Source of the DNA: an uncultured Acholeplasmatales bacterium
GTDB taxonomy: Bacteria > Bacillota_I > Bacilli_A > Acholeplasmatales > Anaeroplasmataceae
Length of the DNA: 64,000 nt
Reading direction: 5' to 3'
Assembly: GCA_944324795.1 (NCBI GenBank)
Contig: CALUXR010000007.1
Location: 1 to 64,000 of the forward strand
The translations under genes and the position numbers were made by a program. A model generated the notes under the pieces. That model was not told the origin of the DNA. It saw only the letters and a program-made list of their open reading frames with translations, and searched no databases. Positions 3,447 through 29,896 of this stretch are shown one piece after another. Positions within the stretch are counted from its first letter, which is position 1. Each line of letters opens with the position of its first letter.

Positions 3447-3459
3447 TTAAATTTAAATA

Positions 3460-3490
3460 AATAGTATCCATTTAAAAGATGGATACTATT
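3460..3490 (+). terminator. Hairpin after the thioredoxin lipoprotein
   Basis: A perfect 12-bp stem (3460-3471 with 3479-3490) with a 7-base loop is followed by a broken T-rich stretch (TACTATTTT). It probably terminates or attenuates transcription between the lipoprotein gene and the next gene, whose AGGAG (3500-3504) begins only 10 bases later. Confidence 0.7.
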
Positions 3491-3509
3491 TACTATTTTA
3501 GGAGTATTT

Positions 3510-4286
3510 ATGAAAAAAGAAAGTATATATAAAATTATTAAATATGTAACTGCTTTTTTCTCTATTATTATGATAATTTGTTTCATTATACAATTAGCTA
3601 GAGTATATTTTGGTGATTTATCACCAATGTATTCAAGAGATATAGTAGGTAAATATTTATTACAAATTTTACCAATTATTATATTATGGATAATATCTAT
3701 TATTTGTGGTTTTGTTTATTCTTTAATTGTTAAAGAAAAGAAACATATATATGTTAAAACTACAAATGAAGCTATGTTAAAGATCTTAGAAGCAAATTTT
3801 AAAGATGATATATCACGTAATGAAGAGTATAAAGCGTTAGAAAAATGCCATAAAAAAATGAAAATTGCTTTAATTATTAGCCTTGTTATTTATGCAATAT
3901 GTTTAATAATGATCTCTTTATATTTATTTAATCCTGCTCATTTCTTGTATGATGGAAATATAAATGGTCAAATGTTAGATTTATTAATAAATACTTCACC
4001 ATGGCTTATAATTTCTCTTATTACCATTATTGTATATACCTATTATGTTGATTATGAATCTAAAAATGGAGTTGTTTATGCTAAAGCTATCATTAAAAAT
4101 GAAGGTAGAAGTAAAATAATTAAATTTAAAAAGATTCGTAATGAAAAATTAATTATAAATATTATAAGAACTTGTATTATTGTTATTGCGATTGTATTTA
4201 TTATTGTTGGGGTTGTAGCTGGGGGACCTCAAAGAGTTTATCAAAAAGCAATTAACATTTGTACAGAATGTATAGGTCTTGGATAA
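3510..4286 (+). CDS. Membrane protein with C-terminal CD1871A-like CXXC tail
   Basis: The 258-residue product has about five hydrophobic segments (near 12-29, 48-72, 117-140, 158-176 and 216-239) separated by a charged cytoplasmic-looking stretch. The last 18 residues follow a final membrane segment and read VYQKAINICTECIGLG, with Cys251 and Cys254. That tail closely resembles the end of the small CD1871A-type CXXC proteins (KAINICxECIGxG), which in Clostridia often sit beside a 4Fe-4S membrane protein and a thioredoxin. The next gene is exactly such a protein, with its ATG one base after this stop, so the two are translationally coupled. I infer that the CXXC is an electron or thiol carrier for the polyferredoxin. 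The function of the N-terminal part is not recognised. The start has AGGAG at ideal spacing. Confidence 0.8.
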   Translation: MKKESIYKIIKYVTAFFSIIMIICFIIQLARVYFGDLSPMYSRDIVGKYLLQILPIIILWIISIICGFVYSLIVKEKKHIYVKTTNEAMLKILEANFKDDISRNEEYKALEKCHKKMKIALIISLVIYAICLIMISLYLFNPAHFLYDGNINGQMLDLLINTSPWLIISLITIIVYTYYVDYESKNGVVYAKAIIKNEGRSKIIKFKKIRNEKLIINIIRTCIIVIAIVFIIVGVVAGGPQRVYQKAINICTECIGLG

Positions 4287-4287
4287 G

Positions 4288-6285
4288 ATGACGAAAGTAA
4301 AGAATTTTTTCCTTAGTATTATCCCTAGCAAAAGAAAATTAATTCAATTATATTCTGCCTTATTACATAATGCTCATATTAAGGGTTTTGTAACAGGTAA
4401 AATATTTACTGGTTCACTTAAAAATGTTTGTGCGCCAGGGTTTAATTGTTATTCTTGTCCTGGCGCTATTGCTGCTTGTCCGCTTGGTTCTATTCAAAAT
4501 GCTTTAGCTGAAAGTAAAACGAAAACGCCTACATATGTTCTTGGTATCATTTTACTTTATTGCATTATTTTAGGTAGAACTATTTGTGGCTATTTATGTC
4601 CTGCAGGTTTACTTCAAGAATTATTATATAAGATTAAAACACCAAAGCTTAAAAAGAGTAAAGTTACAAGAGCTTTATCATATTTTAAATATGTCATATT
4701 ATTTATTTTAGTAATAGGTGTACCACTTATGTATGCTTTGCAAAAAAATAATATGCCTGTACCAGCATTTTGTAAATACATTTGTCCGGTTGGTACGTTT
4801 GAGGGTGGCGTTTTCCTATTAATACCTCAAAGCAATTCTGATTATTATGCAATGCTTGGCGCCTTGTTTTCTTGGAAGTTCTTAATAATGTTATTGATTA
4901 TTTTATCTTCAATATTTATTTATAGAGTATTTTGTCGTTTCTTATGTCCACTTGGTGCTATTTATGGTTTATTCAATAAATTATCTATAATAGGTGTTAA
5001 AGTAGATAAAGCAAAATGTACAAATTGTCACGCTTGTGTTAATGTTTGTAAAATGGATGTTAAAGAAGTTGGTGACCATGAATGTATAAATTGTGGTGAA
5101 TGTATCGATGTTTGTAAAGCAGATGCTATTAAGTGGAAGAATGTTTTAAACTTAATTAGAAGAGAAAAAGAATTAGAAGCATCATTCGCTACTGAAGGTG
5201 GAGCTTTAGATGTTATTGAAGATAATAAAGTTGATATAAATAATATATCTACAACAGCTACTACAACTTCTAATGTAGCAGAAAATAAAGATGAAAATGA
5301 TGTTAAAGAAGAAAAGAAAAAGATAAATAAAAGTCTAGTTACTAGAATTGTATTAAGTGTTGGTTTAATTGCTATTTTAATAACAACAATAGTTTTAGTT
5401 AATGTTGATTTTAGTAAGAAAATATATTCACAAAATATGATTTTAGATAGTTTTAATACTAAATTATATAATGGCAATGAATATGATATTAATAATAGCG
5501 ATAAAGATGCCAAATTAATATATTTCTATGATGATTTTGATAATGATTTATTTAATGAAATCAATTCTATCACTGCTGATAATTTAGATGTTGTCTTAAT
5601 TAGTAAATATGATGATAAAGATAATTATAATAATTTAGTAAATGATAATTTTAATGATTCAAATATTTTGTTTGGATATGATTCAGTAAATCAAACTGAA
5701 ATCAATAAATTTGTTGAAACTATATCTTATCCTTATATTGTTATTTTAGATAAAGACAATAAAATAGTGTTAGCTGAGCAAAATAGTTATAATGAATCTT
5801 ATTATAATGATTATATTAATCCAATTATTAATAACATCATTATTGGTAATGAAGTTGGTAATAAATGTTTAATACAAGATCTAACATTTATGACTGATGG
5901 TTCAAAGTTTAATATTTCTAAATATTTAGGAAAAATTGTAATTTTAAATTTCTGGTATTTAGGTTGTACACCATGTCAAAATGAAATGCCATATTTTAGT
6001 GATGTTAATAATGAATATGATGAAGTTGAAGTTATTTCTGTTTCAGAAAATTTAGCATATATTTTAGATCCGGAAGGAACTTTAGCTTATTATAGTGAAC
6101 AAAATTTAAATTTAATTCCTGCTTATGAAAGTACAGGAAATCCATATGCTACAGCTTTGTTTGGAGTTGCTCAACAATTCCCAATGACAATTATAATCGA
6201 CCAAGAAGGATTTATAGCTTATAAGTGTATTGGTGAATTAGAAGAAGCAGAGTTAAGAGCTCAAGTTGAAGCCTTGTTAAGTTAG
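4288..6285 (+). CDS. Membrane polyferredoxin fused to TlpA-like thioredoxin
   Basis: The start is taken as ATG 4288, one base after the previous stop; an in-frame TTG at 4279 is possible. The N-terminal half is a NapH/NosR-like membrane ferredoxin. It has an opening cysteine motif (Cys48, Cys54, Cys57, Cys64 counted from ATG 4288), several membrane segments carrying CGYLCPAG, CKYICPVG and CRFLCPLG motifs, and then two 4Fe-4S binding sites (CTNCHACVNVC and CINCGECIDVC, about 242-275). After a charged linker and another membrane segment (about 345-370) comes a thioredoxin-like fold with no CXXC. The last is a TlpA-type domain with FWYLGCTPC (Cys560, Cys563). The architecture suggests electrons cross the membrane through Fe-S clusters to a dithiol outside. 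The family and motifs are clear; the physiological acceptor is inferred only. Confidence 0.85.
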   Translation: MTKVKNFFLSIIPSKRKLIQLYSALLHNAHIKGFVTGKIFTGSLKNVCAPGFNCYSCPGAIAACPLGSIQNALAESKTKTPTYVLGIILLYCIILGRTICGYLCPAGLLQELLYKIKTPKLKKSKVTRALSYFKYVILFILVIGVPLMYALQKNNMPVPAFCKYICPVGTFEGGVFLLIPQSNSDYYAMLGALFSWKFLIMLLIILSSIFIYRVFCRFLCPLGAIYGLFNKLSIIGVKVDKAKCTNCHACVNVCKMDVKEVGDHECINCGECIDVCKADAIKWKNVLNLIRREKELEASFATEGGALDVIEDNKVDINNISTTATTTSNVAENKDENDVKEEKKKINKSLVTRIVLSVGLIAILITTIVLVNVDFSKKIYSQNMILDSFNTKLYNGNEYDINNSDKDAKLIYFYDDFDNDLFNEINSITADNLDVVLISKYDDKDNYNNLVNDNFNDSNILFGYDSVNQTEINKFVETISYPYIVILDKDNKIVLAEQNSYNESYYNDYINPIINNIIIGNEVGNKCLIQDLTFMTDGSKFNISKYLGKIVILNFWYLGCTPCQNEMPYFSDVNNEYDEVEVISVSENLAYILDPEGTLAYYSEQNLNLIPAYESTGNPYATALFGVAQQFPMTIIIDQEGFIAYKCIGELEEAELRAQVEALLS

Positions 6286-6295
6286 GAGGGATATT

Positions 6296-7732
6296 GTGAA
6301 GAAGATTAAAAAAGTTTTATTTAGTCTTATTGGTGTTATATTTTTAAGCTTAGCTTTAACATCTTGTAGTGATGATGAAGTTGTTACGTCTTTAATAGTT
6401 AGAGGTTATACTAATAGTTTTACTGTTGGAGATACTTTTAATGCTAAAGGGTTACTAGCAACAGCTAATACTAATGAAGGTGAAATCAATGTTTCTGATG
6501 AAGTGGAAATTGATTCAAGTATGGTTGATATGAACAAACCTGGTATTTATACAGTAGTTGTTAAATATATGAATATTGAGACACCTTATCAAATTGAAGT
6601 TGTTGCTAAAGCGAATGAACAAAGATTAAAATCTCTAGCACTAGATACAACAAATGTTAAATTAAATTATTTAATTGGCGAAACATTTGATAGCAGTGGT
6701 CTTGGTATTATTGCCACTTATCAAAATTCTAATAAAGAACCTGATGAAGTTAGATATTTAACTAGTTTAGATGGTTTTAATTTAGTAGTTAGAGACAATC
6801 AAAATAACACTATAACTGGACCTTTTACTGCAAATGGTGAATATACTGTTTATGTAACAAATGATACTATTAGAGCTAATTTTAAGGTTAATGTTAAAGA
6901 AGAAGAAGTTGGAATTGCACAAGCTATTGATCTAGCTGTTGAAAACAAAGATTTAGTTAGTGAAGGTTTTTCTTTTAATACTAATCCAAATAGTTTAAAT
7001 GCTTATAATAATAATGGTGTTTATTATTATTTTGGTGATAATTTAATGTCATTAGAATATTTAGCTGATGGTAATAGTTATTATAATTGTTATTATTTAG
7101 AAAATAATACACTTTATGGCTATAAATATAATACAATTAGTGGTGAAAGAGAAATCTATTCTAATTTAACAAATGAAGCAATAAACGGTATAGCTTATGA
7201 AATGTTTGCTAATAGTAAAACATATTATGGGGCAGAAGGATTACTTAAAGGTTTATATGATTTAGCTTTAGAAAATAATAATCGCGATTTTGGCGAAGGT
7301 ATGATTAAATCAACAATTAGTACTGGTGGTACAACTTATAGTTATAGCTTTAATTTTGGTTTATTAGAAGAAGTTGAAGCTGGCCTAAAATATTATTTAC
7401 ATAAAGTAGAAGTTAGCTTTACTTTAGATGATTCTAATTTTGCTAATAACATAAATGTTACATGTAACACTTATGTTGTAGATAATAAGAAAACTGATTT
7501 TACAATCTTAGCTAAAGATGATGTGACTAATACTAGTTTATTTTATGGTGCTGATAGAAATATTCCAACTGGTTATCCTAGTGATTTCCCAGTATTAAAT
7601 GATTATTCTATTAACAATTGTATCGCTCGTTTAAAAGCTACAGCTAAACCAGATAGTAGTCTATCTTGTTCTTATCAAATATCACAATTAAGTGGCAAAC
7701 GTGATGCAATAAATCAATATCCACTAGTCTAG
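6296..7732 (+). CDS. Ig-like lipoprotein, short paralogue
   Basis: Translation starts at GTG 6296 with AGGAGGG at 6284-6290. The 478-residue protein has a lipoprotein signal (LTSC, Cys24). Two tandem bacterial Ig-like domains of the Big_3 type follow, each with the signature S..VGDTFN..GL / YLIGETFDSSGL and an ending ..PGIYTVVVKY. A unique C-terminal region ends with GYPSDFPVLNDYSINNC. It is a paralogue of the next gene, aligning along its whole length with that protein's first ~500 residues, but it stops just after the RDAINQYP segment where the other continues. It is probably a surface-exposed binding or structural protein. The position between a thioredoxin fusion and MoxR/VWA genes suggests a client or component of that machinery, which is inference. 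Confidence 0.8.
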   Translation: MKKIKKVLFSLIGVIFLSLALTSCSDDEVVTSLIVRGYTNSFTVGDTFNAKGLLATANTNEGEINVSDEVEIDSSMVDMNKPGIYTVVVKYMNIETPYQIEVVAKANEQRLKSLALDTTNVKLNYLIGETFDSSGLGIIATYQNSNKEPDEVRYLTSLDGFNLVVRDNQNNTITGPFTANGEYTVYVTNDTIRANFKVNVKEEEVGIAQAIDLAVENKDLVSEGFSFNTNPNSLNAYNNNGVYYYFGDNLMSLEYLADGNSYYNCYYLENNTLYGYKYNTISGEREIYSNLTNEAINGIAYEMFANSKTYYGAEGLLKGLYDLALENNNRDFGEGMIKSTISTGGTTYSYSFNFGLLEEVEAGLKYYLHKVEVSFTLDDSNFANNINVTCNTYVVDNKKTDFTILAKDDVTNTSLFYGADRNIPTGYPSDFPVLNDYSINNCIARLKATAKPDSSLSCSYQISQLSGKRDAINQYPLV

Positions 7733-7742
7733 GAGGGATAAA

Positions 7743-10286
7743 ATGAAAAAGAAAATAATAAGTATTTTAATAACATTCGTTTTAATTTTTGTCCTAGCAG
7801 CTTGTAAAAATGATGGTGTTGATAGCCTTAGTTTAAATGGTTATAGTGAAGTATTAACTGTTGGTGATACATTTAATAAAGATGGTTTAAGCGTTGAAGC
7901 TAAAAGTGGTGATAAAGTTATAGATGTAACTGATAAAGCAAGTATTAATTGTGATGCAGTTGATACTTCTAAACCTGGTACTTACGCTATTATTGTTAAT
8001 TATAATAATTATCAAGAAGTGTTTTATGTAACTGTAAAAGAAAAAGATAATAATAAAACTTTAATTAATTTAAAGTTAGATACAACAAGCGTTAAAAAAG
8101 ATTATTTAATATCTGAAACTTATAAAAGTGATGGTCTTAAATTGATAGCTACATATCAAAATTCTAATGGTGATCCTGATTCAATTGAATATTTAACTGA
8201 TTTAACAGGATTTAATATTGAAGTTAAAGATAATCAAAATCAAGTTATAAGTGGTCCTTTTACAAATGTTGGTAGTTATGATGTAGTAGTGAGTCAAGAT
8301 AATGTTAGTGCTAGTTATAAAATTAATGTTACTATTGGTGCTCCAAGTCTTGATATAGCTGTAAATGCAGCCTTGGAAAATAAAGGTTTAGTAGCTGGTG
8401 GTGAATCTAACAATTACGACCCTAATACTAATGATTATTATGGTAGGGTTAATACAGCTTATGAATATGGTCCTGATTTATTAAGTATAACTTATAAAAA
8501 TAATGGTGATAATTATGTTGAAAATTATTTCTTAAATGAAAAAGAAGAAATAGTTGGTGTTAGAGTTAATGAAGATTTTGAACAAATAGAAATTAATCCT
8601 GATGAAGACCCACCTACAGGATATGACCCTTTTGCTAAACCACTTGAAATCTTAAAAGGTATAGACAGTAGTTATTTAAACGGTCTAAATTATTCAATGT
8701 TTGCTGGTAAAGCTCATTATTTAGGACCTGAAGCTTTACTTCAAGGTTTATATAATTTAGCTAAAGAAAATAGAAACTATGATTATCAAGAATCAATTAT
8801 TAAATCAACTAATGAATTTGGTGAAGAAGAATATGTTTATAATTTTAGTTTTGGTTATTTAGCTGAAATTCAAACTACAACTGTTTTCTATTTTGATGTT
8901 GTTGATGTCTCATTTACTCTTGGTGAAGGTAATTTCTTAGAATCATTAAGTATAACAGATAATTTATATGTTGTTTCTGAAATGAAAACACAATTTATAA
9001 TAACACCGCGTGGCGAACCTAATAGCGAAGAATTCTATAAACCTGATCGTATCTTACCTAATGGTGAAACAATAGATACAAATAATCCTGATGATTTGGA
9101 TGGTTATCCTAGTGATTTCCCTGTTTTAACTGAAGGTTATACAATTAATGATTGTATGGCTCGTCTAAAGAGCAATGCTGGTTCTCCAAGTAGTCATTAT
9201 TCAGGACATTATGATATTCATCAATATGCTGGTTCTAGAGATGCAGTTAATAAATATCCTGAATCAGAAATATATGTTACAGATTATACAATAACTGATT
9301 TAAATGGTAATGTTATTGATGATTTAGAATTTACGACTAAAATTGATGATGATAACACTTCTGATAGTGCAATTGATTTAAAATTAACTGATTTCAATTC
9401 TGAAACAGCTAGAAATGTAGATATTATATCTTTTATCTATAATGAAAAGAATATTGGTAATTTCTATTATGAACCAACAGATTTAGTTTTATATTATGAT
9501 TTAGATGAAAATACTGTTAAATTAAGATTCTTCAAATATGGAAGATATGAGCTTGATATGGTTTCTTTAAAAACAACTAAACATCTAATAATAGATGTTG
9601 ATTATAGAGAGCCTATTACATTTACTACGCAAGTTTTCCAAGATAATACTAATCCTAATTTAGCTAATTTTGTTCAAAAGAATGTAGTTGATGTTTATGT
9701 TGGTGATGTAGTTTACTTTAATGTAGCTCCTGATAGTAAAGGAGATCCGGAATTCATTCCTACATGTAGTGATGAAAATGCTATTATAGAAATTAATCCA
9801 ATAAATAGTGATTTACCTGAAAAATTATTTGATTATGATGGTTTTTATAGTTCATTTACATCAAGTGTAGAAGGGACATATGAAATTACATTAAAATCTA
9901 ATCGTAATAATGTTTCATCAAAATTAACTATAAATGTTAAACCTGAGCCAGATTTTACGGAAAAATTAAGTTCTAGTTATACATTTAATGTTCAAGCGAC
10001 AGGAGCTATGATAAGTGGTGAAATATCATTTGAAATTGATCCTGAAGTTGTTGGTGTAATTGGTGGTAAAGCAGAAATTAATGTTGGTGAATTTAATGAA
10101 ACAATATCATTTAATTATGCTAATAGAGAATTTAAAAATGTTGGTCATATAAGTGGAGATAAAGGATTTAATATTGAATTAAGTGTAAATGAAAATTTAG
10201 ATATTGTTATATCTGGTTCTTATAGAGATGAAAAGGATAATACAGTTTATTCATTTAATAGTGTTTTAACCCTAAAGGAGGGATAA
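7743..10286 (+). CDS. Ig-like lipoprotein, long paralogue
   Basis: The ATG at 7743 has GGAGGG just upstream. The 847-residue lipoprotein (LAAC, Cys21) starts with the same two Big_3-type Ig domains as its neighbour, then the same middle domain ending GYPSDFPVLTEGYTINDC...ARLK and RDAVNKYP. It then continues for about 340 residues that the short paralogue lacks, including beta-rich segments with further Ig-like character (about 620-740) and a C-terminal beta domain. The two genes are 10 bases apart and clearly arose by tandem duplication followed by loss or gain of the C-terminal part. There is no membrane anchor other than the lipid. Function unknown; likely surface architecture. The next gene starts one base after the stop. 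Confidence 0.8.
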   Translation: MKKKIISILITFVLIFVLAACKNDGVDSLSLNGYSEVLTVGDTFNKDGLSVEAKSGDKVIDVTDKASINCDAVDTSKPGTYAIIVNYNNYQEVFYVTVKEKDNNKTLINLKLDTTSVKKDYLISETYKSDGLKLIATYQNSNGDPDSIEYLTDLTGFNIEVKDNQNQVISGPFTNVGSYDVVVSQDNVSASYKINVTIGAPSLDIAVNAALENKGLVAGGESNNYDPNTNDYYGRVNTAYEYGPDLLSITYKNNGDNYVENYFLNEKEEIVGVRVNEDFEQIEINPDEDPPTGYDPFAKPLEILKGIDSSYLNGLNYSMFAGKAHYLGPEALLQGLYNLAKENRNYDYQESIIKSTNEFGEEEYVYNFSFGYLAEIQTTTVFYFDVVDVSFTLGEGNFLESLSITDNLYVVSEMKTQFIITPRGEPNSEEFYKPDRILPNGETIDTNNPDDLDGYPSDFPVLTEGYTINDCMARLKSNAGSPSSHYSGHYDIHQYAGSRDAVNKYPESEIYVTDYTITDLNGNVIDDLEFTTKIDDDNTSDSAIDLKLTDFNSETARNVDIISFIYNEKNIGNFYYEPTDLVLYYDLDENTVKLRFFKYGRYELDMVSLKTTKHLIIDVDYREPITFTTQVFQDNTNPNLANFVQKNVVDVYVGDVVYFNVAPDSKGDPEFIPTCSDENAIIEINPINSDLPEKLFDYDGFYSSFTSSVEGTYEITLKSNRNNVSSKLTINVKPEPDFTEKLSSSYTFNVQATGAMISGEISFEIDPEVVGVIGGKAEINVGEFNETISFNYANREFKNVGHISGDKGFNIELSVNENLDIVISGSYRDEKDNTVYSFNSVLTLKEG

Positions 10287-10287
10287 G

Positions 10288-11694
10288 ATGACTGATAATT
10301 TTAAAAAGATAAAAGTTAAAATAATTATTGAAAAGTTATTAATATCTTTATTTATTGGTCTTTTTATTGGTGTTTTAACTTCATCTATTCTAGTCCTAGT
10401 TTATAAACAATTAGGACTAGAATATAGTCTTTTAATGTTTATATTAATAGGTGTTGGTGTATTTATTATTTTAAGTTTAATATTATTCTTTATTTTAAAA
10501 CCTAATAATATTAAAGTAGCTAAAAGAATTGATAAGCAATTAGCTTTAAAAGAAAAAGTACATACAATGGTTGAATATAATGAAAAAACAGGATTATTAG
10601 TTGATTTACAACGTGAAGATGCTACAACTAAATTAAATGAAATTCCTGTTAAAAAGTTTAAATTAAAATTTAGTCCTTACTTATTAATATTACCATTAAT
10701 TGTTATACCTTTATGTATAACTTCAATTGTAGTTAAAGGTAAAGATATTGAAGAACCACCATATGTAGAACCACCTGTTTCTGGTGATCCTTTTATAATT
10801 CAACAAATAAGAGATTTAATAAGAGAAGTTAATGAAGATGTTAATTTGATGAATCCAGTTAAGGAAGCTTATGTTGGTCATTTAGAAGATTTAATTACAG
10901 CTATCAATAAACCTGAAATTATGCGTTATGAAGAAGTTGAAGCTGTCAATTTAACTATTACAAATGTTGGTTATTCAAGTATTAATTTAAATTCAATTGA
11001 TGAAATAACTATGGCTTTAAGTAATTCTAATATGGATGAAGTTCATAATTTAGGTAGTGCCATTGCAAGTTATGATTTAAATCGAGTAAATGATGCTTTA
11101 GATACAATGTTTAGTTATGTTAATTTAATTTCAGCTAATCAAAGACAAACTAATTATAATAATTTAGTTACAGAATGTTTTCAAAAAGTTGATGATGAAA
11201 GATTAGCTGAAACTGATGAATTTTATCAGGAATTTGTTAAATTAAAAGCCGATTTAGCTCTAGCTATAGCTGATGTTAATTATAATGACGCTATTAGTGA
11301 ATTAGCTAAAGACACTAAAGATTCTTTTGGTGATGCTATTATAAGGCAAAACGAAACTTTATCTATGGCTAATTATATTGAAGAACGATTAAGAGCTATT
11401 TTTGAATTACCAGATAATGAAGAACCAGTTAATCCAACACCTCCAGATGTTTCAGGGGACGGTAATAATCCAACAATAGATAATCCTGGTGGCGGTGGAG
11501 GTCATGGTGATATTATCTTTGCTGGTGATGATTTAGTATATGATCCTGATGAAGGCTTAATTGAATATTATAAGGTAATAACTAAATATAGTAATTATAT
11601 TCAAGGATTAGTTCAAGATGGAGTTATATCTGAAGAATTAGCTAATTATTATATAGAATATTTCAATAAATTATATGAAGAAAATGAGGATTAA
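10288..11694 (+). CDS. Membrane protein of the MoxR/VWA cluster
   Basis: The 468-residue product has two membrane helices near the N-terminus (about 14-35 and 45-68), a short cytoplasmic charged loop, and a third helix (about 127-149). A large extracytoplasmic region follows, with alpha-helical character, a Pro-rich linker, and a Gly-rich stretch (PGGGGGHG, about 395-402) before a final helical segment. Its layout recalls the multi-helix DUF4175-like membrane proteins that accompany MoxR/DUF58/VWA operons, but I cannot assign a named family with certainty. AAGGAGGG lies just before the ATG, inside the end of the previous gene. The location immediately upstream of moxR suggests it is a membrane partner of that complex. 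Confidence 0.75.
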   Translation: MTDNFKKIKVKIIIEKLLISLFIGLFIGVLTSSILVLVYKQLGLEYSLLMFILIGVGVFIILSLILFFILKPNNIKVAKRIDKQLALKEKVHTMVEYNEKTGLLVDLQREDATTKLNEIPVKKFKLKFSPYLLILPLIVIPLCITSIVVKGKDIEEPPYVEPPVSGDPFIIQQIRDLIREVNEDVNLMNPVKEAYVGHLEDLITAINKPEIMRYEEVEAVNLTITNVGYSSINLNSIDEITMALSNSNMDEVHNLGSAIASYDLNRVNDALDTMFSYVNLISANQRQTNYNNLVTECFQKVDDERLAETDEFYQEFVKLKADLALAIADVNYNDAISELAKDTKDSFGDAIIRQNETLSMANYIEERLRAIFELPDNEEPVNPTPPDVSGDGNNPTIDNPGGGGGHGDIIFAGDDLVYDPDEGLIEYYKVITKYSNYIQGLVQDGVISEELANYYIEYFNKLYEENED

Positions 11695-11698
11695 AGAT

Positions 11699-12802
11699 AT
11701 GGGGAAAAATAAATTTAAAAAAGAAGAAAATGTTGTAGAAGCTACTATAGAAGAAGTTGTAGTAAAAGAAGAAGTAAAAAACATTACTCCATCTAAAGAA
11801 GAACAAACTATTCTTAGTGAAGCAGAAGAAAAAGTAGCTAAATTTAGTGCTGCTGTAAATAAAATTAAGGATGAAATTAAAAAAGACGTTGTAGGTCAAG
11901 AAGATATTGTTAATAATGTTATTATAGCTATTATTGCTGGTGGTAACGTGTTACTTGAAGGTGTACCAGGGGTTGGTAAAACTCGTTTAGTTAGATCTTT
12001 ATCTCAAGTTTTACACCTACCATTCTCAAGAATTCAATTTACACCAGATTTAATGCCAAGTGATGTTACTGGTACAAATGTAATTGATCGTGATGCTAAT
12101 GATAAGATGCAAATAGTATTCCAAAAAGGACCTATTTTTGCTAACTTAGTTTTAGCTGATGAAATTAACCGTGCTACACCAAAAACTCAATCAGCACTAC
12201 TAGAAGTAATGCAAGAACATAAAGTTACAATTTCTAATAAAACATATGTAATGGAAGAACCATTCTTCGTTTTAGCTACAGAAAACCCAATTGAACAAGA
12301 TGGTACATATCCATTACCAGAAGCGCAAATGGACCGTTTTATGTTTAAATTAATAGTAGGTTTCCCTAACATTGATGAATTAAAAGACATTGTAACAATG
12401 ACTCAAATTACAATGGCTGAAACTGCTAATTCAATTGTTGATGGTAAAACAATTCTTGAAATGCGTGAACTTGCTAAAACTGTACCTCTTGTTGATGATG
12501 TCCTAACTTATGCTATGCATTTAGTTACAGCTACTCACCCTGAACTTGATGGTAATGAAATTGCGAAAAAATATATTAGATATGGTGCTTCCCCAAGAGC
12601 GGCTCAAGCTATCATTACTTCAAGTAAAGTTAAAGCTTTAATTGATGGTAATTATAATGTTTCATATGATGATATTGATGAGCTAGCTTATCCTGTTTTA
12701 AGACATAGAATTAAATTATCTTATAATGCTATAAATGATCATTTATCAATCGACGACGTAATTGGACTATTAATTAAAGATTTAAGAAAGTATAAAAAAT
12801 AA
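11699..12802 (+). CDS. MoxR-family AAA+ ATPase
   Basis: The start is chosen at ATG 11699 because GAGGA (11686-11690) is correctly placed for it; upstream in-frame ATGs at 11675 and 11684 lie within the previous gene without a good binding site. The 367-residue protein has an acidic, low-complexity N-terminus of about 45 residues, Walker A GVPGVGKT (88-95), Walker B and MoxR signature LADEINRATPKTQSALLEVMQE, sensor 1 near ATENP, and the AAA lid. MoxR ATPases act as chaperone-like remodelers of VWA-containing complexes, loading metal or assembling enzymes. Here the next three genes encode DUF58 and VWA proteins, which is the classic arrangement. The stop overlaps the next ATG by one base (TAATG). 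The client is not evident from the sequence. Confidence 0.95.
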   Translation: MGKNKFKKEENVVEATIEEVVVKEEVKNITPSKEEQTILSEAEEKVAKFSAAVNKIKDEIKKDVVGQEDIVNNVIIAIIAGGNVLLEGVPGVGKTRLVRSLSQVLHLPFSRIQFTPDLMPSDVTGTNVIDRDANDKMQIVFQKGPIFANLVLADEINRATPKTQSALLEVMQEHKVTISNKTYVMEEPFFVLATENPIEQDGTYPLPEAQMDRFMFKLIVGFPNIDELKDIVTMTQITMAETANSIVDGKTILEMRELAKTVPLVDDVLTYAMHLVTATHPELDGNEIAKKYIRYGASPRAAQAIITSSKVKALIDGNYNVSYDDIDELAYPVLRHRIKLSYNAINDHLSIDDVIGLLIKDLRKYKK

Positions 12803-13680
12803 TGTATTCTATTGATGAAAAGTTTTTACAAAAGATTGAAACCTTAGACCTAATGTTAAAAAATTCTAACTTTGGGTCTTATGGTGGCAATCATAAATCA
12901 AAATTATTTGGTTCATCAAGCGAATTTGCCGATTATCGTGATTATTTAGCTGGTGATGAAATCACGAAAATAGATTGGAATGCCTATCAAAGATTTAATA
13001 AACTATATTTAAAACTTTATTTAGATGAAAGACAATCTCATAATAGAATCTATATTGATGCAAGTAGGAGTATGGCTTATGGTAAAGGTGATAAAGCAGA
13101 TTATGCTTTAAAATTGGCGGCTATTTTTGCCTATATTTCTATTTGTAATATGGATAAAGTATCTATTTATTATATTAAAGATAATAAAATAGAAGAAGTA
13201 TGTACTAATCTAGGTAGTAAAGATGCCTTTTATGCTAATATTTTAAAATTAAATGATATTGAATTTAGTGGTGATTGTTTTATTAGTGAAAGTTTATTAC
13301 CTTTAAATGTGGGTTATGGTGATGGCTTATCAGTTTTACTTTCTGATTTCTTAACAGAAAATAATTATGAAGCTGGAATTGATCATTTAGTTGATAGAAA
13401 AAGAGATGTATTATGTATTCAAATATTATCTAAAGAAGAAATTAAACCAAAAATTAGAGGTAAAGTTCAATTGTATGATTCTGAAGATAGTAATAGAATA
13501 TATAAGAAAAATGTTAATAAAGATGTAATCATAGCTTATGAAAAAGCTTTAGAATATGTCAAAGAAAGGTTAACAAATTATTGTAATTCAAGAAATGCAC
13601 TTTACTTATTTTTGACAACAGGGGAAGATGAGGGTGAAGTGTTTATGAATGTCTTAGTACAAATGGGGGTATTAAAATGA
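12802..13680 (+). CDS. DUF58 protein (VWA-like, MoxR partner)
   Basis: The 292-residue soluble protein has the DUF58 hallmark FADYRDYLAGDEITKIDWNAY (about 42-62), followed by a VWA-like fold with a MIDAS-type DASRSM sequence (about 91-96). It starts at the ATG overlapping the moxR stop and itself ends in a TGA that overlaps the next ATG (ATGA), so the genes are translationally coupled. DUF58 proteins are constant companions of MoxR ATPases; they are thought to bridge the ATPase and membrane-bound VWA proteins. The family assignment is secure. The precise activity is unknown for the family. Confidence 0.92.
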   Translation: MYSIDEKFLQKIETLDLMLKNSNFGSYGGNHKSKLFGSSSEFADYRDYLAGDEITKIDWNAYQRFNKLYLKLYLDERQSHNRIYIDASRSMAYGKGDKADYALKLAAIFAYISICNMDKVSIYYIKDNKIEEVCTNLGSKDAFYANILKLNDIEFSGDCFISESLLPLNVGYGDGLSVLLSDFLTENNYEAGIDHLVDRKRDVLCIQILSKEEIKPKIRGKVQLYDSEDSNRIYKKNVNKDVIIAYEKALEYVKERLTNYCNSRNALYLFLTTGEDEGEVFMNVLVQMGVLK

Positions 13681-15551
13681 GTTTTTCTTATCCTATAGCG
13701 TTTTTAATTTTAATATTTATTCCCGTTTTAATTATTCTTTATATTTTAAAAAATAAATTTACTGAACAAACTGTATCTTCTACTTTTTTATGGACTTTAT
13801 CAGAAAGATTCTTAAAAAGAAGAAGACCAATTTCAAGAATTTATGGTATTTTAAGTTTAATTTTACAATGTTTACTTGTAGCAGTTATAGCTTTAGCTGT
13901 AGCTCATCCGCAAATTAAATTACCAAATCAAGCTCGCGATTATTGTTTTATAATCGATTCTTCTGGTAGTATGCAAATAAAAAATGGAGCAGAAACAAGA
14001 TATAATTTAGCTAAAGCAGAAATTAAAAAAATCATTGATTCTTCAACTCTTGGTTCAACTTATACTTTAATTAGTTGTGCAGAAGAACCTACAGTTATTT
14101 ATGATACAATAACAAGTAAAGATAGTGCTATATCACAACTTGATGCCTTAACTATTACTAGTGTTGATAGTAGATGTGTTGATGCAATGCCACTTGCTCA
14201 AAATTATTATGATGAAAATCGCTCAATGCAAGTTTATGTAGCAAGTGATAAGGCATATGCTACTTCTAATCTTAATTTAATTGATGTTTCTAATAATTCA
14301 GCAAATTTTAGTTTTAGTGATATTGTTTATAATATTTCTTTAAGAAAAATAACATTGACCGGTAATATTAAATCATTTAATGCTAGTGGTGATGTTAATA
14401 TTAAGTTGAATGTTGATGGTAATAATATAGCTGAAACGACAGTTTCTACTTCATTAAATGAAGACACATCATTTAATTTTAATGATGTTGACCTTAACAT
14501 TTTAAATGAAGATTATCAATCAATTGAATTAATCTTAGAAGGTAATGATGATTTAGCTGCTGATAATAATTACATTATTTATAATTTAGTTCAAGAACGT
14601 GTAAATAAAGTATTAATTGTTAGTAATAATCCACTATTCTTAGAAAACTTATTAGAAGCATTCGGCACTCTTGATATAACAGTTATCGATGAAGAAGAAT
14701 ATGCTGATTATAAAGATAATTATTATGGCTATGGTCTTTATATTTTTGATTCATATAATCCAAATGAATTACCAGGAGATGGTAGTGTTTGGTTCATGAA
14801 TATTGATGATGGTATTATGTCTGATTATGGATTTAGTTATCAAGAAACACTAGATTATGGTGATGTTGGTGTCCAAGCTGAATTAAATAACAGAACTAAT
14901 TCATTATTAAATCAGTTAAAAGCTAATTTAACAGGAGATACATTTTATGTAACAAAATATCAAAAATATGGTTTATATAATAATTTCACTACATTACTTA
15001 GTTGTGAAGGTAATCCTGTTTTATTTGTTGGTAATACTCCAAATGGTAATAGAGAAGTTGTTTTCGCATTTGATATACATAATTCAAATTTACCTTTATC
15101 AATGGATTTTATTATTTTAGTTAATAATTTAATTAATTATTCATTCCCTAATGTTTTAGATAAAACAAATTATGTAGCAGGTGATACATTGTCAGTAAAT
15201 GTACTAGCAGGTTGTTCAAGTATACAAATTATAACTCCTAGTGGAATTAGTAATTATCTTGATACTTCAAGTGCGATTAGTGATTATGTTTTAGCTGAAG
15301 CAGGTAGTTATCAAATCAATGTTACTATTGATGGTAGAGTTACTAAATTTATGGTTTATGCAAGTTATCCAGAAAGTGAAAGTCAAGTTGTAGAAACTCC
15401 GGAGATTGCTACTCTTAGTCTTACAGGTGATCCTGAGGCTCATTATGGTGATGGTATTTATCAAAGTTTAGTTTATTTATTTATAGCATTAGGTGTCATA
15501 TTTATATTAGATTGGATGGTGTATTGTTATGAGCAATATAAGCTTCGCTAA
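13677..15551 (+). CDS. BatA-like membrane protein with VWA domain
   Basis: The 624-residue protein opens with the BatA-type N-terminus: a first hydrophobic helix, a basic loop with LKRRRPISR, and a second helix (about 53-75). A VWA domain with complete MIDAS motif DSSGSM (about 93-98) follows outside the membrane. Next comes a GATase1-like fold (starting near KVLIVSNNPLFLENLLEAFG), beta-rich domains, and a C-terminal membrane helix ending in a short basic tail. It overlaps the DUF58 gene by four bases and the next VWA gene by 23 bases. Such proteins form the membrane part of MoxR-VWA complexes. They are called aerotolerance proteins in Bacteroides, but that phenotype should not be assumed here. 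Confidence 0.9.
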   Translation: MSFSYPIAFLILIFIPVLIILYILKNKFTEQTVSSTFLWTLSERFLKRRRPISRIYGILSLILQCLLVAVIALAVAHPQIKLPNQARDYCFIIDSSGSMQIKNGAETRYNLAKAEIKKIIDSSTLGSTYTLISCAEEPTVIYDTITSKDSAISQLDALTITSVDSRCVDAMPLAQNYYDENRSMQVYVASDKAYATSNLNLIDVSNNSANFSFSDIVYNISLRKITLTGNIKSFNASGDVNIKLNVDGNNIAETTVSTSLNEDTSFNFNDVDLNILNEDYQSIELILEGNDDLAADNNYIIYNLVQERVNKVLIVSNNPLFLENLLEAFGTLDITVIDEEEYADYKDNYYGYGLYIFDSYNPNELPGDGSVWFMNIDDGIMSDYGFSYQETLDYGDVGVQAELNNRTNSLLNQLKANLTGDTFYVTKYQKYGLYNNFTTLLSCEGNPVLFVGNTPNGNREVVFAFDIHNSNLPLSMDFIILVNNLINYSFPNVLDKTNYVAGDTLSVNVLAGCSSIQIITPSGISNYLDTSSAISDYVLAEAGSYQINVTIDGRVTKFMVYASYPESESQVVETPEIATLSLTGDPEAHYGDGIYQSLVYLFIALGVIFILDWMVYCYEQYKLR

Positions 15552-18192
15552 TCCTTATTTAATATTAATTTTAATTCCTGTTTTATTATTACTTATTATT
15601 CCCTTTTTTATTACATTTAAGAAAGATAATATTGGTATTAGAAATATATTTTCATTAATATTACATGTTATTATTTCTACTTTGATTGTATTAGTAATTG
15701 CTGGAATGAGTTATAAAACAGCTATTGATGAAACAAATATCTATGTTTTAGCTGACTTATCTTATTCTACTAACAGAAATATAGATACAATTGACAATTA
15801 TGTTTCAACATTAGAGAATAATGTAGACAACCAAACTAAAGTTGGTGTTGTCTGTTTTGGTACTGATACGCCATATGTTTTAATGACACCTGGTGAAAAG
15901 GTTAAAAGTGTAAGAAGTGTTATCGATCAAGAAAGAATCGATCAAAGTGGTACTGATATTGCTGGAGCCTTACGATATACAGCTAGTTTATTTGACGATA
16001 ATGTAGTTAAAAGAATTATTTTAATAACTGATGGTGATGAGACAAATAGTGGTAATGTTTTAAATGTTGTTAATGAATTATATACACAAGATATTTTTGT
16101 TGATGCAATATATTTAGATGACAATTTACCATCTGATGTAGCAGAAGTACAAATTAATAGTGTAAATTATACGATGTCTACATATCAAAATAAAGCAGAG
16201 AATGTTCAAATTACAATTCAATCTAATTTAGAGCATAAAACTTCTTTAGTTGAACTTTTAAAAGATGGTCAAGTTGTTCAAACTAGAGCACCACAATTAT
16301 CAAAAGGTATAAATGTTATAACTATGTCTCTTGATACAGCGACAGCAGGGGAATTTAAATATGATGTAAGAGTTACTGTAAGTGGTGATTCTTCATCTTA
16401 TAATAATAATTATAGTTTTACGCAAGTAGTTACAGAAAATGTTAAGATTTTATATCTAGCAAGCAATGATAATGAAGTCGATAAAGCTAATAATTATTTT
16501 AAGAAAGATAATACAGAAGTAACTTATATAAACATTAATAATGGTAATGTACCTTATACAATTGAAGATTTATGTAATTATGATGAGTTTGTCTTATCTG
16601 ATGTTAATGTTTTAAATATTAGAAATAGTGGTCAATTTATTGCTAATTTAGATGAAATGGTATCACGTTATTCTAAAACTTTAATTACCTTAGGTAATAC
16701 TTATACCCAAAATGGAACTGATGAATATGAATATGATACATTAGCTAGTATGTTACCTATTAAATATGGTGAAAGTGATAGAGATGGTAAATTAATTACC
16801 ATAGTTATTGATATTTCTAAGAGTATGAGAGAATCTTATCATTTAGATGTAGCAAAAGAATCAGCTTGTAAAATTGTCGATTTGGCTCAAGAATCTGATA
16901 ATATTATGGTTATTACAATGTCTGGTGAAACACAAGTATTACAAATGAGTACAACTGTAACTGATGGTACTAAATTAAAAGTTAAAGAAGCTATTAATAA
17001 TATTGAAGAACGTCAAGGGACACTTATTGGTTCAACATTACAAAACACATATGAGTTAATTGGTGAATTACCATTTTTACAAAAACAAATTTATTTAATT
17101 TCTGATGGTAGAAATATGATTGGCGATCCTAATGATGCTGTTAGTGTGGCTAATAATATATATGTAAATACTGGTACTACTATTTCTTCAATTCAAGTAG
17201 GTAGTCCAGATGCTGAAAACTTACTTGAAAAAATCTCACAAGCAGCAGCAGGACGTTATTATACGGCTAATGAAGTTAAAGATTTAGAAGAATTATTTGA
17301 TAACGAAATCTCAAGTGATATTACAGCCACTGTTGTTGATGATGGTGTATCTAGAGAAATTGTTGTAAATAAAGAAAATGATGTTACATTAACTGATATT
17401 GAAGGTGACATTGAAGCTGTTAGAGGTTTTTATGTAGGTACTACTAAAAATTCAGCCACAACAATATTAGAAACAATTTGGTCATCAGAAACTAAAAATA
17501 CTGAAGTTCCAATTTATGCTTATTGGCGTTATGGAAACGGCTTAGTAGCAAGCTTTTCTTGTGATATTAATCATAATGTTTGGTTGCGCAATTGGGGAAG
17601 TGGTACAAATGGTGAAAAATTCTTACAAAACTTAAGTGGTTCTAATTTACCTACTAAGAGAGAAGATGTGCCTTTACTTGTTGAAACTGAAGCGATTGGT
17701 ACTAATACCTATTTATATGTAGATACTCCAACCTTAAATCCTAATGCTAAATTAACGTTAGAAATAACTGATCCAAGTGGTGATGTTAAAGAGCGTGATT
17801 TAGTATATACAACTGAAGATTATGAGACTAACTTTGAAACGAAAGAAGTTGGTACATATCGTTTAAAGATTACTTATACTTTAGAAGCTTCAAATGCTAG
17901 TCCTATTACATATTCTAAAGAATATATTTATAATGTTTCATATACAGAAGAATATAATAGTTTTAATTATTATGAAATATCTAATTTAAATCATATGGTT
18001 AATACAGGTAATCCTGTTTATGAAGATGCAGATTCTATTAATTTAAGTATTGATGAAACTAAAGTTACAACTTATACATATGACTTTACAGTTTTATTTA
18101 TGACTATAGCTATTTGCTTATTTGTTGTTGATATCTTCATTAGAAAAGTTAAATGGGCTGATATTAAGCAAATATTTAGTCATAAACATTAA
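15529..18192 (+). CDS. Membrane protein with two VWA domains
   Basis: The 887-residue protein begins with two membrane helices (about 8-27 and 40-60) like its neighbour. A first VWA domain has DxSxS as DLSYS (about 77-81) and the ITDGDE segment. A beta domain and a GATase1-like segment follow (VKILYLASN), then a second VWA domain with DISKSM and LISDGRNM. A C-terminal extracellular beta region and a final membrane helix precede a short basic tail. Both metal-ion-dependent adhesion sites appear intact. The gene starts inside the end of the BatA-like gene (23-base overlap) and finishes the MoxR-type module. The glutamine-amidotransferase-like part lacks an obvious catalytic Cys and is probably structural. 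Confidence 0.88.
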   Translation: MSNISFANPYLILILIPVLLLLIIPFFITFKKDNIGIRNIFSLILHVIISTLIVLVIAGMSYKTAIDETNIYVLADLSYSTNRNIDTIDNYVSTLENNVDNQTKVGVVCFGTDTPYVLMTPGEKVKSVRSVIDQERIDQSGTDIAGALRYTASLFDDNVVKRIILITDGDETNSGNVLNVVNELYTQDIFVDAIYLDDNLPSDVAEVQINSVNYTMSTYQNKAENVQITIQSNLEHKTSLVELLKDGQVVQTRAPQLSKGINVITMSLDTATAGEFKYDVRVTVSGDSSSYNNNYSFTQVVTENVKILYLASNDNEVDKANNYFKKDNTEVTYININNGNVPYTIEDLCNYDEFVLSDVNVLNIRNSGQFIANLDEMVSRYSKTLITLGNTYTQNGTDEYEYDTLASMLPIKYGESDRDGKLITIVIDISKSMRESYHLDVAKESACKIVDLAQESDNIMVITMSGETQVLQMSTTVTDGTKLKVKEAINNIEERQGTLIGSTLQNTYELIGELPFLQKQIYLISDGRNMIGDPNDAVSVANNIYVNTGTTISSIQVGSPDAENLLEKISQAAAGRYYTANEVKDLEELFDNEISSDITATVVDDGVSREIVVNKENDVTLTDIEGDIEAVRGFYVGTTKNSATTILETIWSSETKNTEVPIYAYWRYGNGLVASFSCDINHNVWLRNWGSGTNGEKFLQNLSGSNLPTKREDVPLLVETEAIGTNTYLYVDTPTLNPNAKLTLEITDPSGDVKERDLVYTTEDYETNFETKEVGTYRLKITYTLEASNASPITYSKEYIYNVSYTEEYNSFNYYEISNLNHMVNTGNPVYEDADSINLSIDETKVTTYTYDFTVLFMTIAICLFVVDIFIRKVKWADIKQIFSHKH

Positions 18193-18203
18193 GGAGGGAA
18201 AAT

Positions 18204-19673
18204 ATGAAAAAAATATTAAGTTTTATTATATTAATGTTAATATCATTGTTTACCCTATCTAGTTGTGTTGGTGTAACTAATCCTCCTAACCCAAATGATC
18301 CAGGTAATGGTGATACACCAGTTGATCCTAATGTACCTGAAGAGGACTTAATTACTTATAAAGTTTCACTATATCGTAATAGCCAAATCTGGATTCCTAA
18401 TATGGAAATATATGCTATATTTGTAAATGATGTATCTGTTACAGAAGTTTTAATTGATGATTTTTATGGTACAGCTGAATTTAAGGGTGATGGTGACTAT
18501 GATGTGCATTTAAGTGATGTTCCTACTGGCTATACATATGACCCTAATATGTATTCGGTTGATCCTCAACATACTGAAATTATAATTGACCTATATCCTA
18601 TTTTAGATTTTGATAGCGGTAATGGTAGTGGCCCTTATAATCCGGATGCTTATGATATAAGTAAAGTTGGTTATTATAAAGTTGAATTAGATTCAATTAA
18701 TGATCGTAAATATTTTCATTTCTTACCTGTTCAATCTGGTGAATATATTATTGAATCAATGTGTGATATTCATGCAGATGATATAGATCCTGTAGGTATT
18801 AAATATAGTGGAACAGAGCAATTTATTTCTGAAGAATATGGTAAAGAAGTTTATGATGATGGTGGTATAAGTAAAGATGCCGGTTTTACAACAAACTTCA
18901 AATTTACAATCACATTTGATGTTACAGAATTAAATGTAGCGCGTGTTTTTGCGATTGAAGCCGAAAGTAAAATTGAACAATATCCATGTACAGTTTATTT
19001 TAAGATTCAATGGAATGATGATTATTCTAAAGGACCTGCCTTTAACCCACGTATCATTGAACCTAAAGAAGCAAATGAAAGTGTGACACCTATAGATTCA
19101 GGTACACTTACATGGATGTCTGATTTAAATAATCATGTTTTAGATATAAGAAAATGTAAATATAATCCTAACAATGGTCTATGGTATTATTATGATGAAC
19201 AATATAAAGACCAACCTAATTTTGAAAAAGATTGGGGAATTAAACTTGTAGCTCCTGCTTCAGATACAATAAATATTCCATCAATAAATATGACTTTCTC
19301 ACAAGCCTTAGGTTATCAACCAGCTTATTTATGTTTATATGATGAAAATGATGAAAGAGTATGTTATGACTATTTCTTATATGGTGATGGACCTTTATAT
19401 GATGAAAATGGTGATAAAGTAGTATATGAAGGTGTATCTTATAGTGATTATGCTAGAGGCGGTTTCGTTTATGTTACTAATGAAATTATGGAATTCTATC
19501 AACTTTTATCTAATAATAAAGAATATTTTAAAGATGGTGAAGGTTGGGCAGAAGGAAATAAATATGATGATGAACCAAATGGTGCTGGCGATGAAGGTGA
19601 ACTAGTATATGGTGGTGTTTCATCTGGTCAAGATGATCAATGGTTATTTGCTTGTGCAATTTATTTAAGTTAA
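18204..19673 (+). CDS. Lipoprotein closing the MoxR/redox locus
   Basis: A 489-residue lipoprotein (LSSC, Cys21) with GGAGGG before ATG 18204. After a Pro/Asn/Gly-rich spacer it has a carboxypeptidase-regulatory-like beta domain (about 50-130, with GYTYDPNMYSV), a beta-sandwich of the pre-peptidase kind seen also in the 23015 gene (YKVELDS...YFHFLPVQSGEYIIES), and a C-terminal domain. That last domain resembles the two C-terminal domains of the thioredoxin lipoprotein at 174 (GLWYYYDE..., then FVYVTNEIMEFYQLL and a final WLFACAIYL). The shared domain at both ends of the locus argues that the genes work together. No enzyme motif is visible. It is followed within 10 bases by a strong terminator. 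Confidence 0.8.
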   Translation: MKKILSFIILMLISLFTLSSCVGVTNPPNPNDPGNGDTPVDPNVPEEDLITYKVSLYRNSQIWIPNMEIYAIFVNDVSVTEVLIDDFYGTAEFKGDGDYDVHLSDVPTGYTYDPNMYSVDPQHTEIIIDLYPILDFDSGNGSGPYNPDAYDISKVGYYKVELDSINDRKYFHFLPVQSGEYIIESMCDIHADDIDPVGIKYSGTEQFISEEYGKEVYDDGGISKDAGFTTNFKFTITFDVTELNVARVFAIEAESKIEQYPCTVYFKIQWNDDYSKGPAFNPRIIEPKEANESVTPIDSGTLTWMSDLNNHVLDIRKCKYNPNNGLWYYYDEQYKDQPNFEKDWGIKLVAPASDTINIPSINMTFSQALGYQPAYLCLYDENDERVCYDYFLYGDGPLYDENGDKVVYEGVSYSDYARGGFVYVTNEIMEFYQLLSNNKEYFKDGEGWAEGNKYDDEPNGAGDEGELVYGGVSSGQDDQWLFACAIYLS

Positions 19674-19680
19674 TATGTTT

Positions 19681-19707
19681 AAGGTAGTCAAAATGACTAC
19701 CTTTTTC
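19681..19707 (+). terminator. Intrinsic terminator of the 3510-19673 unit
   Basis: A perfect 10-bp stem (19681-19690 with 19694-19703) with an AAA loop runs directly into a T-run. It lies eight bases after the lipoprotein stop codon and marks the end of the long redox/MoxR transcription unit. Confidence 0.92.
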
Positions 19708-22935: not shown

Positions 22936-22953
22936 AAATATTAAAAAACATTA

Positions 22954-23003
22954 TAAATAAAGAGGTGGCTTTTTAGCCCCTCTCTATTTATGATTAATAG
23001 AGA
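22954..23003 (+). promoter_or_regulatory. Two mutually exclusive hairpins before the 23015 gene
   Basis: Hairpin A pairs 22954-22970 with 22975-22990 around a TTTT loop, with one bulged T and one mismatch. Hairpin B pairs 22981-22988 (TCTCTATT) with 22996-23003 (AATAGAGA) perfectly and ends at the AAGGAG binding site (23003-23008). Both need bases 22981-22988, so only one can form at a time. The layout could control ribosome access, or A may simply be a terminator without a strong T-run. Confidence 0.45.
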
Positions 23004-23014
23004 AGGAGATTTAT

Positions 23015-23962: not shown

Positions 23963-23971
23963 TTAATAATG

Positions 23972-23980
23972 TGTTATAAT
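23972..23980 (+). promoter_or_regulatory. Extended -10 promoter before the 24013 lipoprotein gene
   Basis: TGTTATAAT is an extended -10, with TTAAAA 17 bp upstream (23952-23957) as a weak -35. It precedes AGGAGGT (24001-24007) and ATG 24013, and probably drives the lipoprotein plus the oligopeptide transporter genes. Confidence 0.65.
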
Positions 23981-24012
23981 ATAAAAGTATTTCAAAATTA
24001 AGGAGGTCAAAA

Positions 24013-27738: not shown

Positions 27739-27763
27739 AAGGGACCTTTTGGTCCCTTTATTG
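27738..27763 (+). terminator. Hairpin between binding protein and permease
   Basis: A perfect 9-bp stem (27738-27746 with 27751-27759) with a TTTT loop and only a short T-tail (TTTATT). It sits between oppA and oppB, where partial terminators or 3'-stabilising hairpins commonly set a higher level of the binding protein. Read-through is needed for the permease genes. Confidence 0.75.
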
Positions 27764-27785
27764 GGAGAATAAAGGAGGATAATAG

Positions 27786-28793: not shown

Positions 28794-28801
28794 GTGAGTT
28801 T

Positions 28802-29887: not shown

Positions 29888-29896
29888 GTGATTATT

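Follow-up and report, generated by a model that had tools for sequence, protein, structure and literature searches.

A polyferredoxin–thioredoxin redox module clustered with a Bat-like MoxR–DUF58–VWA module in Anaeroplasmataceae

Bat operons, which encode a MoxR ATPase, a DUF58 protein and a BatA-domain VWA membrane protein together, are among the closest described counterparts of one half of the locus analysed here. According to the summary of Tang 1999 in PMC3557215, reducing agents brought about a partial rescue of Bat mutants and an export of reducing power was proposed, a proposal that was never proven; an oxidative-stress role of Bat proteins was not supported in Leptospira (PMC3557215; for further background on Bat see PMC5700661). 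Other MoxR AAA+ proteins act with a VWA partner on electron-transfer proteins, as in RavA-ViaA and NorQ-NorD. A path that moves electrons across the membrane to surface thioredoxin lipoproteins is known from pneumococcus, where the CcdA-Etrx system uses CcdA and a cytoplasmic thioredoxin and has MsrAB2 as its client (PMC3914529). Clostridia, finally, carry on hundreds of contigs a set consisting of a CXXC protein of the CD1871A type, a NapH-like polyferredoxin and TlpA proteins.

The present locus was found in a 64,000-nucleotide stretch of DNA (hereafter the window) from the 1.7 Mb genome of an uncultured Acholeplasmatales gut bacterium, and all features named below lie on its + strand. MoxR, DUF58 and a BatA-domain VWA protein are encoded in one operon as in Bat systems, but redox genes and lipoproteins are added, and a Pfam search of the ten proteins encoded by the central gene run found none of the TPR and SH3 domains of BatC/D/E that mark a strict BatABCDE operon. 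All three parts of the clostridial set are shared, including the fusion of two of them, whereas in Clostridia these genes adjoin Opp and surface protein genes and usually not MoxR genes. The route to surface thioredoxin lipoproteins would parallel that of CcdA-Etrx, but with a polyferredoxin rather than CcdA and a cytoplasmic thioredoxin, and the pneumococcal system comes without a MoxR module (PMC3914529). RavA-ViaA and NorQ-NorD differ in having neither lipoproteins nor thioredoxins, and in their other operon and partner proteins. By these comparisons the locus appears to resemble a Bat-type MoxR/VWA operon joined to a CcdA-Etrx-like surface reducing path, and neither name covers it. In the literature searched, largely without subscription journals, we found no paper joining MoxR, DUF58 and VWA genes with a thioredoxin operon and none on the CD1871A family.

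Ten open reading frames at 3510–19673 follow one another at successive spacings of 1, 10, 10, 1, −20, −1, −4, −23 and 11 bases, in agreement with the initial annotation, which had described a run with gaps of at most 11 bases or overlaps. The hairpin said to close this run, AAGGTAGTCA-AAA-TGACTACCTT-TTTC, also holds as an intrinsic terminator (~19681–19706; fold −16 kcal/mol); a formal terminator scan of the window missed this site, and the 4 terminator-like sites that it did find compare with 3.4 expected, approximately the chance rate. Within the window no promoter or terminator clearly separates the redox genes from the MoxR genes, a split that had been named as evidence against a single unit. 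Pfam and NCBIfam searches recovered the gene identities assigned earlier, namely the CXXC-tail protein, the polyferredoxin–thioredoxin fusion, the Big_3 pair, MoxR, DUF58 and the VWA pair, and the lipoprotein named as the last gene is present. The extent given for the locus stood only in part: the run is real, but a TlpA lipoprotein gene upstream also belongs, since the same redox set in relatives includes it, and the Opp and protease neighbours and the paralogy between lipoproteins had been overlooked. The cluster is wider than first described, with the TlpA lipoprotein upstream and Opp and a giant protease-LRR protein downstream. Recurrence in genomes of the family Anaeroplasmataceae and in a second family (f9) rules out a single-genome accident or a misassembly.

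The redox half opens with this TlpA lipoprotein (174..3446; the frame opens at 60, and the start at 174 was chosen by the signal peptide), which combines a lipobox (VGVSC), a CnaB-like domain, a thioredoxin domain with the motif CTWC, and two copies of an unnamed C-terminal domain (DGYYH ... VTxEL ... WLxxCYY) that match one another at 99.1% in hhalign. Its thioredoxin domain matches AhpC-TSA (Pfam, E 1e-9) and is ResA/DsbE-like in NCBIfam, and 26 of 26 relatives keep the CXXC. The following gene (3510..4286) encodes a five-TM protein with a CD1871A-type CXXC tail, CTECIGLG, that scores above the cut-off of NF040920 (NCBIfam, CD1871A family; E 8e-10, 38.5 bits, cut-off 32). Both cysteines of the tail are kept in 32 of 32 relatives, and the positive-inside rule predicts that the CTEC tail lies outside. 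The third member is the fusion (4288..6285, with a possible alternative start, TTG, at 4279), consisting of a NapH-like membrane polyferredoxin, a thioredoxin-like domain without CXXC and a TlpA/ResA-like domain with CTPC. Its polyferredoxin part matches Fer4_5 (Pfam, E 7e-17) and contains helices with CxxxCP motifs and two C-terminal [4Fe-4S] motifs, the cysteines of which are invariant in relatives; since the TIGR02163 score (E 6e-26, 91.6 bits) lies below the curated cut-off of 213, the fusion is termed NapH-like and not NapH. The second thioredoxin domain matches AhpC-TSA (Pfam, E 6e-13), its CXXC is likewise invariant in relatives, and its nearest solved structures are ResA and TlpA. By the positive-inside rule, the fusion is predicted to hold its ferredoxin clusters inside and its thioredoxin domains outside. 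A thioredoxin fold and a CXXC motif, with an outside location predicted from topology, would place these proteins among the TlpA/ResA thiol-disulfide oxidoreductases. The gap between the TlpA lipoprotein and CXXC genes contains a T-poor hairpin (3458..3492) with a ribosome-binding site immediately 3' of it. Hairpins at this position are stable in all eight genomes compared, from two families, with quite different sequences between genomes, and the one in the window is perhaps an attenuator or a processing site.

Two paralogous Ig-like lipoproteins follow (A, 6296..7732, Big_3 E 2e-10; B, 7743..10286, Big_3 E 4e-6; both Pfam), with relatives of A matching B at 39–43%. A three-TM protein with a long outer region (10288..11694) is encoded by the gene that consistently opens the MoxR module across relatives, and has no firm Pfam family, a DUF4175-like match being seen in one relative only. 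Within its coding start lies a hairpin of 16 pairs (10386..10424), which is conserved across the genus, where one base pair differs in both of its bases, and is absent from family f9. The remainder of the module comprises a MoxR AAA+ ATPase (11675..12802; AAA_3, PF07726, E 9e-62; Walker A GVPGVGKT and LVLADE), a DUF58 protein (12802..13680; PF01882, E 6e-22; MIDAS-like DASRS), a BatA-like membrane protein with an outer VWA domain (13677..15551; PF07584 E 1e-10, VWA_2 E 1e-9; DSSGS), and a membrane protein with two VWA domains (15529..18192; VWA_2 E 1e-21; DLSYS and DISKS), all by Pfam. The ATP-binding and MIDAS motifs are intact, and a MoxR with Walker motifs beside DUF58 and VWA proteins with MIDAS motifs constitutes a MoxR-DUF58-VWA (Bat-like) module. 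A defence system was considered and rejected: PADLOC gives weak ATPase matches for MoxR only and none for the other nine proteins, the bpMoxR profile of the anti-phage ternary system is far weaker on MoxR than AAA_3, and the partners specific to defence are not found. The run ends with a lipoprotein (Lipo_last; 18204..19673) that has a CnaB-like domain, a PPC-like domain and a C-terminal domain with a conserved WLFAC cysteine, and matches no Pfam family. Its structural model (pLDDT 79) consists of successive beta-sandwich domains and shows a local match to the collagen-binding PPC-like domain 1nqd (target TM 0.65). A match to the C-terminal beta-sandwich of an enterotoxin (TM-score ~0.5, by target only) was taken as generic beta-sandwich likeness, the local match to 1nqd being better, and a toxin reading was dropped.

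The lipoproteins of the two halves resemble one another. In profile comparisons the N-terminal CnaB-like parts of the last lipoprotein and the TlpA lipoprotein match at 99.3%, and each C-terminal repeat of the TlpA lipoprotein finds a counterpart in the C-terminal domain of the last lipoprotein (98.3% and 97.4%), against 0.2–0.3% for controls with unrelated parts. By these profiles, the last lipoprotein (MoxR half) is a paralogue of the TlpA lipoprotein (redox half), a relationship that ties the halves together more strongly and directly than any other finding. A lipoprotein encoded downstream at 23015–23962 is a third paralogue, matching the last lipoprotein (99.9%). Besides the lipobox cysteine, the last lipoprotein has C484 (WLFACGYY), which is kept in 25 of 27 relatives, and the downstream paralogue has a cysteine pair kept in 10 of 10. 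Of 27 redox-bearing loci, 26 encode a BatA-like protein with C617 and 19 one with C513, and both cysteines are absent from all 13 other loci. This pattern would fit thiol clients, and it is confounded by descent. C617 follows directly on the last TM helix and is predicted to face inward, a position that an outside thioredoxin could not reach and that counts against coupling between the halves. Relatives of the last lipoprotein in family f9 (L146:14399-15937 and L148:4624-6168) have inserted rubredoxin-like CxxC...CxxC knuckles, and another relative (L132:14979-16529) has a Cys-rich insert.

Gene order, operon-like spacing, joint presence and absence (below), paralogy and conserved cysteines are observed features of these genes. 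We posit, at a confidence that we place midway between belief and disbelief, that the halves form one surface system in which an exported reductant serves surface lipoproteins assembled by MoxR/VWA. For such a coupled system we infer the direction of electron flow, the topology, the contacts between the proteins and the identity of the clients as follows. Cytoplasmic ferredoxin would donate electrons to the NapH-like polyferredoxin, which would relay them to the thioredoxin domains that the fusion and the TlpA lipoprotein expose outside; the CTEC tail of the five-TM protein would be the probable intermediate. ResA and TlpA are reductases, and as these are the nearest folds, electrons most likely move outward to surface thiols, where the thioredoxin domains would keep the cysteines of surface lipoproteins reduced or let them reshuffle. 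MoxR and DUF58 would work inside, with the three-TM protein and the two VWA membrane proteins reaching outside, and this half would draw on ATP in assembling or remodelling a complex that includes these lipoproteins. The most likely shared client is the last lipoprotein, the paralogue of the TlpA lipoprotein.

Downstream of the run, three lipoproteins with Listeria-Bacteroides repeats (19945..25086), among them the third paralogue, precede an OppABCDF peptide transporter (25102..32637), which is syntenic with the redox genes in Clostridia, and a subtilase-LRR lipoprotein of 2507 aa (32862..40385), assigned to its family from sequence. Synteny of OppABCDF and the repeat lipoproteins with the redox trio is kept from Anaeroplasmataceae to Clostridia (window 19945–40385 and seven further loci), and a subtilase-LRR protein of ~2500 aa is often found in that neighbourhood. 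The InlB-OppA-B-C-D-F-CXXC-fusion order at four clostridial loci, the adjacency of Opp to the redox genes in family f9, and the presence of both Opp and the subtilase-LRR gene downstream in the window would suit a role in protein digestion and peptide uptake, with a surface reductase opening disulfides in proteins from food or host, cleavage by the giant subtilase, peptide import through Opp, and assembly of the surface part by MoxR/VWA. However, four family members with neither half nevertheless carry the subtilase-LRR gene, and none was found in the part of the f9 neighbourhood that was read; we regard this role as improbable.

Joint occurrence of the two halves, which bears on the preferred reading of a coupled surface system, was first assessed by profile searches for the fusion and DUF58 in 55 genomes of Anaeroplasmataceae. 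Both were found in the same nine genomes and both were absent from the remaining 46 (Fisher 1.6e-10, genomes treated as independent); across the 160 genomes of the window's order, the fusion occurs only in those nine. The gene order of the window, with the redox genes preceding the Ig lipoproteins, is repeated in three other members of its genus. In two further genomes the redox trio follows the last lipoprotein and precedes the Opp genes, a third has this order split over two contigs, and in a fourth a piece of the fusion lies at a contig end immediately before the three-TM gene. The exception is genome G022, in which the redox trio, Opp and subtilase-LRR share one contig and a MoxR module of a second type (type II) is on another. 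Directly before the three-TM gene of that type-II module, G022 encodes a lipoprotein with a TlpA-like CXXC domain (L033:9606-10910). The halves are thus clustered, despite shuffled order, in all but one of the family genomes where contigs permit the check, and the link is not an accident of one genome. Many of the relatives are fragmented drafts in which a different contig does not always mean far apart, and their reading frames were called mechanically. Where the halves are linked, they move together simply by being neighbours, and the genomes surveyed are related by descent rather than independent as the Fisher values take them to be; both points count against inferring coupling from joint presence and absence.

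Halves usually unlinked in related genomes had been named in the initial annotation as refuting evidence; linkage holds in the family and in family f9 and mostly fails in Clostridia, where the redox genes are usually not beside MoxR genes. The fusion occurs there in at least 574 confirmed stretches. The neighbourhoods of 79 such loci repeatedly contain the CXXC protein, TlpA lipoproteins, Opp and subtilase-LRR. The MoxR module does not recur within flanks of up to 10 kb, many of which end at contig ends, apart from one stray MoxR match. A DUF58 match was found in 16 of 30 fusion-bearing clostridial genomes tested, each time on another contig, and most of these DUF58 loci encode the three-TM, MoxR, DUF58 and two VWA proteins, to which type I adds the last lipoprotein. 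Type I is grouped with full support in a DUF58 tree, and one locus labelled in that tree as being without the last lipoprotein (L157) does carry it. Type-II modules at six loci have subtilase/LRR-like surface proteins on both sides and are without the last lipoprotein. In a sample of 297 genomes from one clostridial order (that of genome G182), not selected for the fusion, type-I DUF58 and the full-length fusion were called at E below 1e-130. Type-I DUF58 was present in 14 genomes, all 14 of which encode the full-length fusion and the last lipoprotein, compared with the fusion in 22 of the 283 genomes without type-I MoxR (36 of 297 overall; Fisher 1e-14, genomes treated as independent). Type-II DUF58 was present in 25 of the 297, nine of them with the fusion. 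Two of the 14 type-I genomes have both halves on one contig, ~15 kb and ~36 kb apart, and in a further genome a TlpA lipoprotein gene lies within a few kb of the MoxR module.

These surveys also bear on whether the locus is a surface-protein island, in which both modules serve the same lipoproteins or large surface proteins separately, sharing locus and lineage with no thiol coupling. Clostridial redox genes that cluster with Opp, lipoproteins and subtilase-LRR without MoxR, type-II MoxR modules flanked by LRR/subtilase proteins without redox genes, and the plentiful surface proteins of the window are all consistent with an island. It accounts less readily for the co-presence in 14 of 14 genomes of the clostridial order though the halves are mostly unlinked, or for the joint presence or absence of the fusion and the last lipoprotein within type-I modules, and we consider it unlikely, if still worth serious attention. 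Among 395 genomes of Bacilli, the type-I module with the last lipoprotein was found in six, all six with the fusion, while six type-I genomes of two other families (f11 and f21) have neither the last lipoprotein nor the full fusion. One of the latter six (G650) has an unfused redox trio elsewhere. Three genomes of family f9 join both halves in one compact run, in the order OppF, TlpA lipoprotein, CXXC, fusion, three-TM, MoxR, DUF58, VWA, VWA, last lipoprotein, Ig lipoprotein, repeat lipoprotein.

Returning to the coupled system, dependence in these samples is one-way: type-I MoxR with the last lipoprotein never occurs without the fusion, whereas the fusion often occurs without a MoxR module. 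This suggests that proteins of the MoxR half need the reductant, rather than the carrier needing MoxR. The frequency of the fusion without MoxR also implies that the redox half has other jobs too, which counts against the coupled system. The same asymmetry weighs on the converse idea that the electron carrier itself is the target, with the MoxR/VWA half maturing or tuning it in the manner of RavA-ViaA on fumarate reductase and NorQ-NorD on nitric oxide reductase. Known MoxR/VWA pairs do act on electron-transfer complexes (PMC10585395, PMC3893208, PMC9976466), but 22 of the 36 fusion genomes of the clostridial order are without type-I MoxR, so that the carrier is not generally dependent on it, and we consider maturation or tuning very improbable. 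That the fusion should strictly require MoxR for its maturation is disfavoured, as most fusion genomes are without the type-I module.

Three further observations count against the coupled system, namely the cytoplasmic location of MoxR and DUF58 as opposed to the proposed clients outside, the separate contigs of the fusion and the type-II MoxR module in G022, and the mostly separate contigs of the halves in Clostridia. A stronger form, which we put forward tentatively and hold to be somewhat more doubtful than credible, is that the type-I modules represent a Bat-like MoxR/VWA class with an obligate link to a dedicated exporter of reductant across the membrane (polyferredoxin-CXXC-TlpA) that would feed the last-lipoprotein family and its TlpA-bearing paralogue, assembled by MoxR/VWA. 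If this obligate coupling is true, the old proposal of exported reducing power would literally hold for this branch of Bat-like systems.

The role of BatA-type operons has been debated since 1999, and we know of no carrier for the reducing power that they were proposed to export. The module described here is tied to carrier-like proteins by its operon, by joint presence and by paralogous lipoproteins. With a candidate client, the last lipoprotein and its C-terminal cysteine, and with the one-way dependence of the MoxR half on the fusion, the old idea that Bat systems export reducing power becomes testable.
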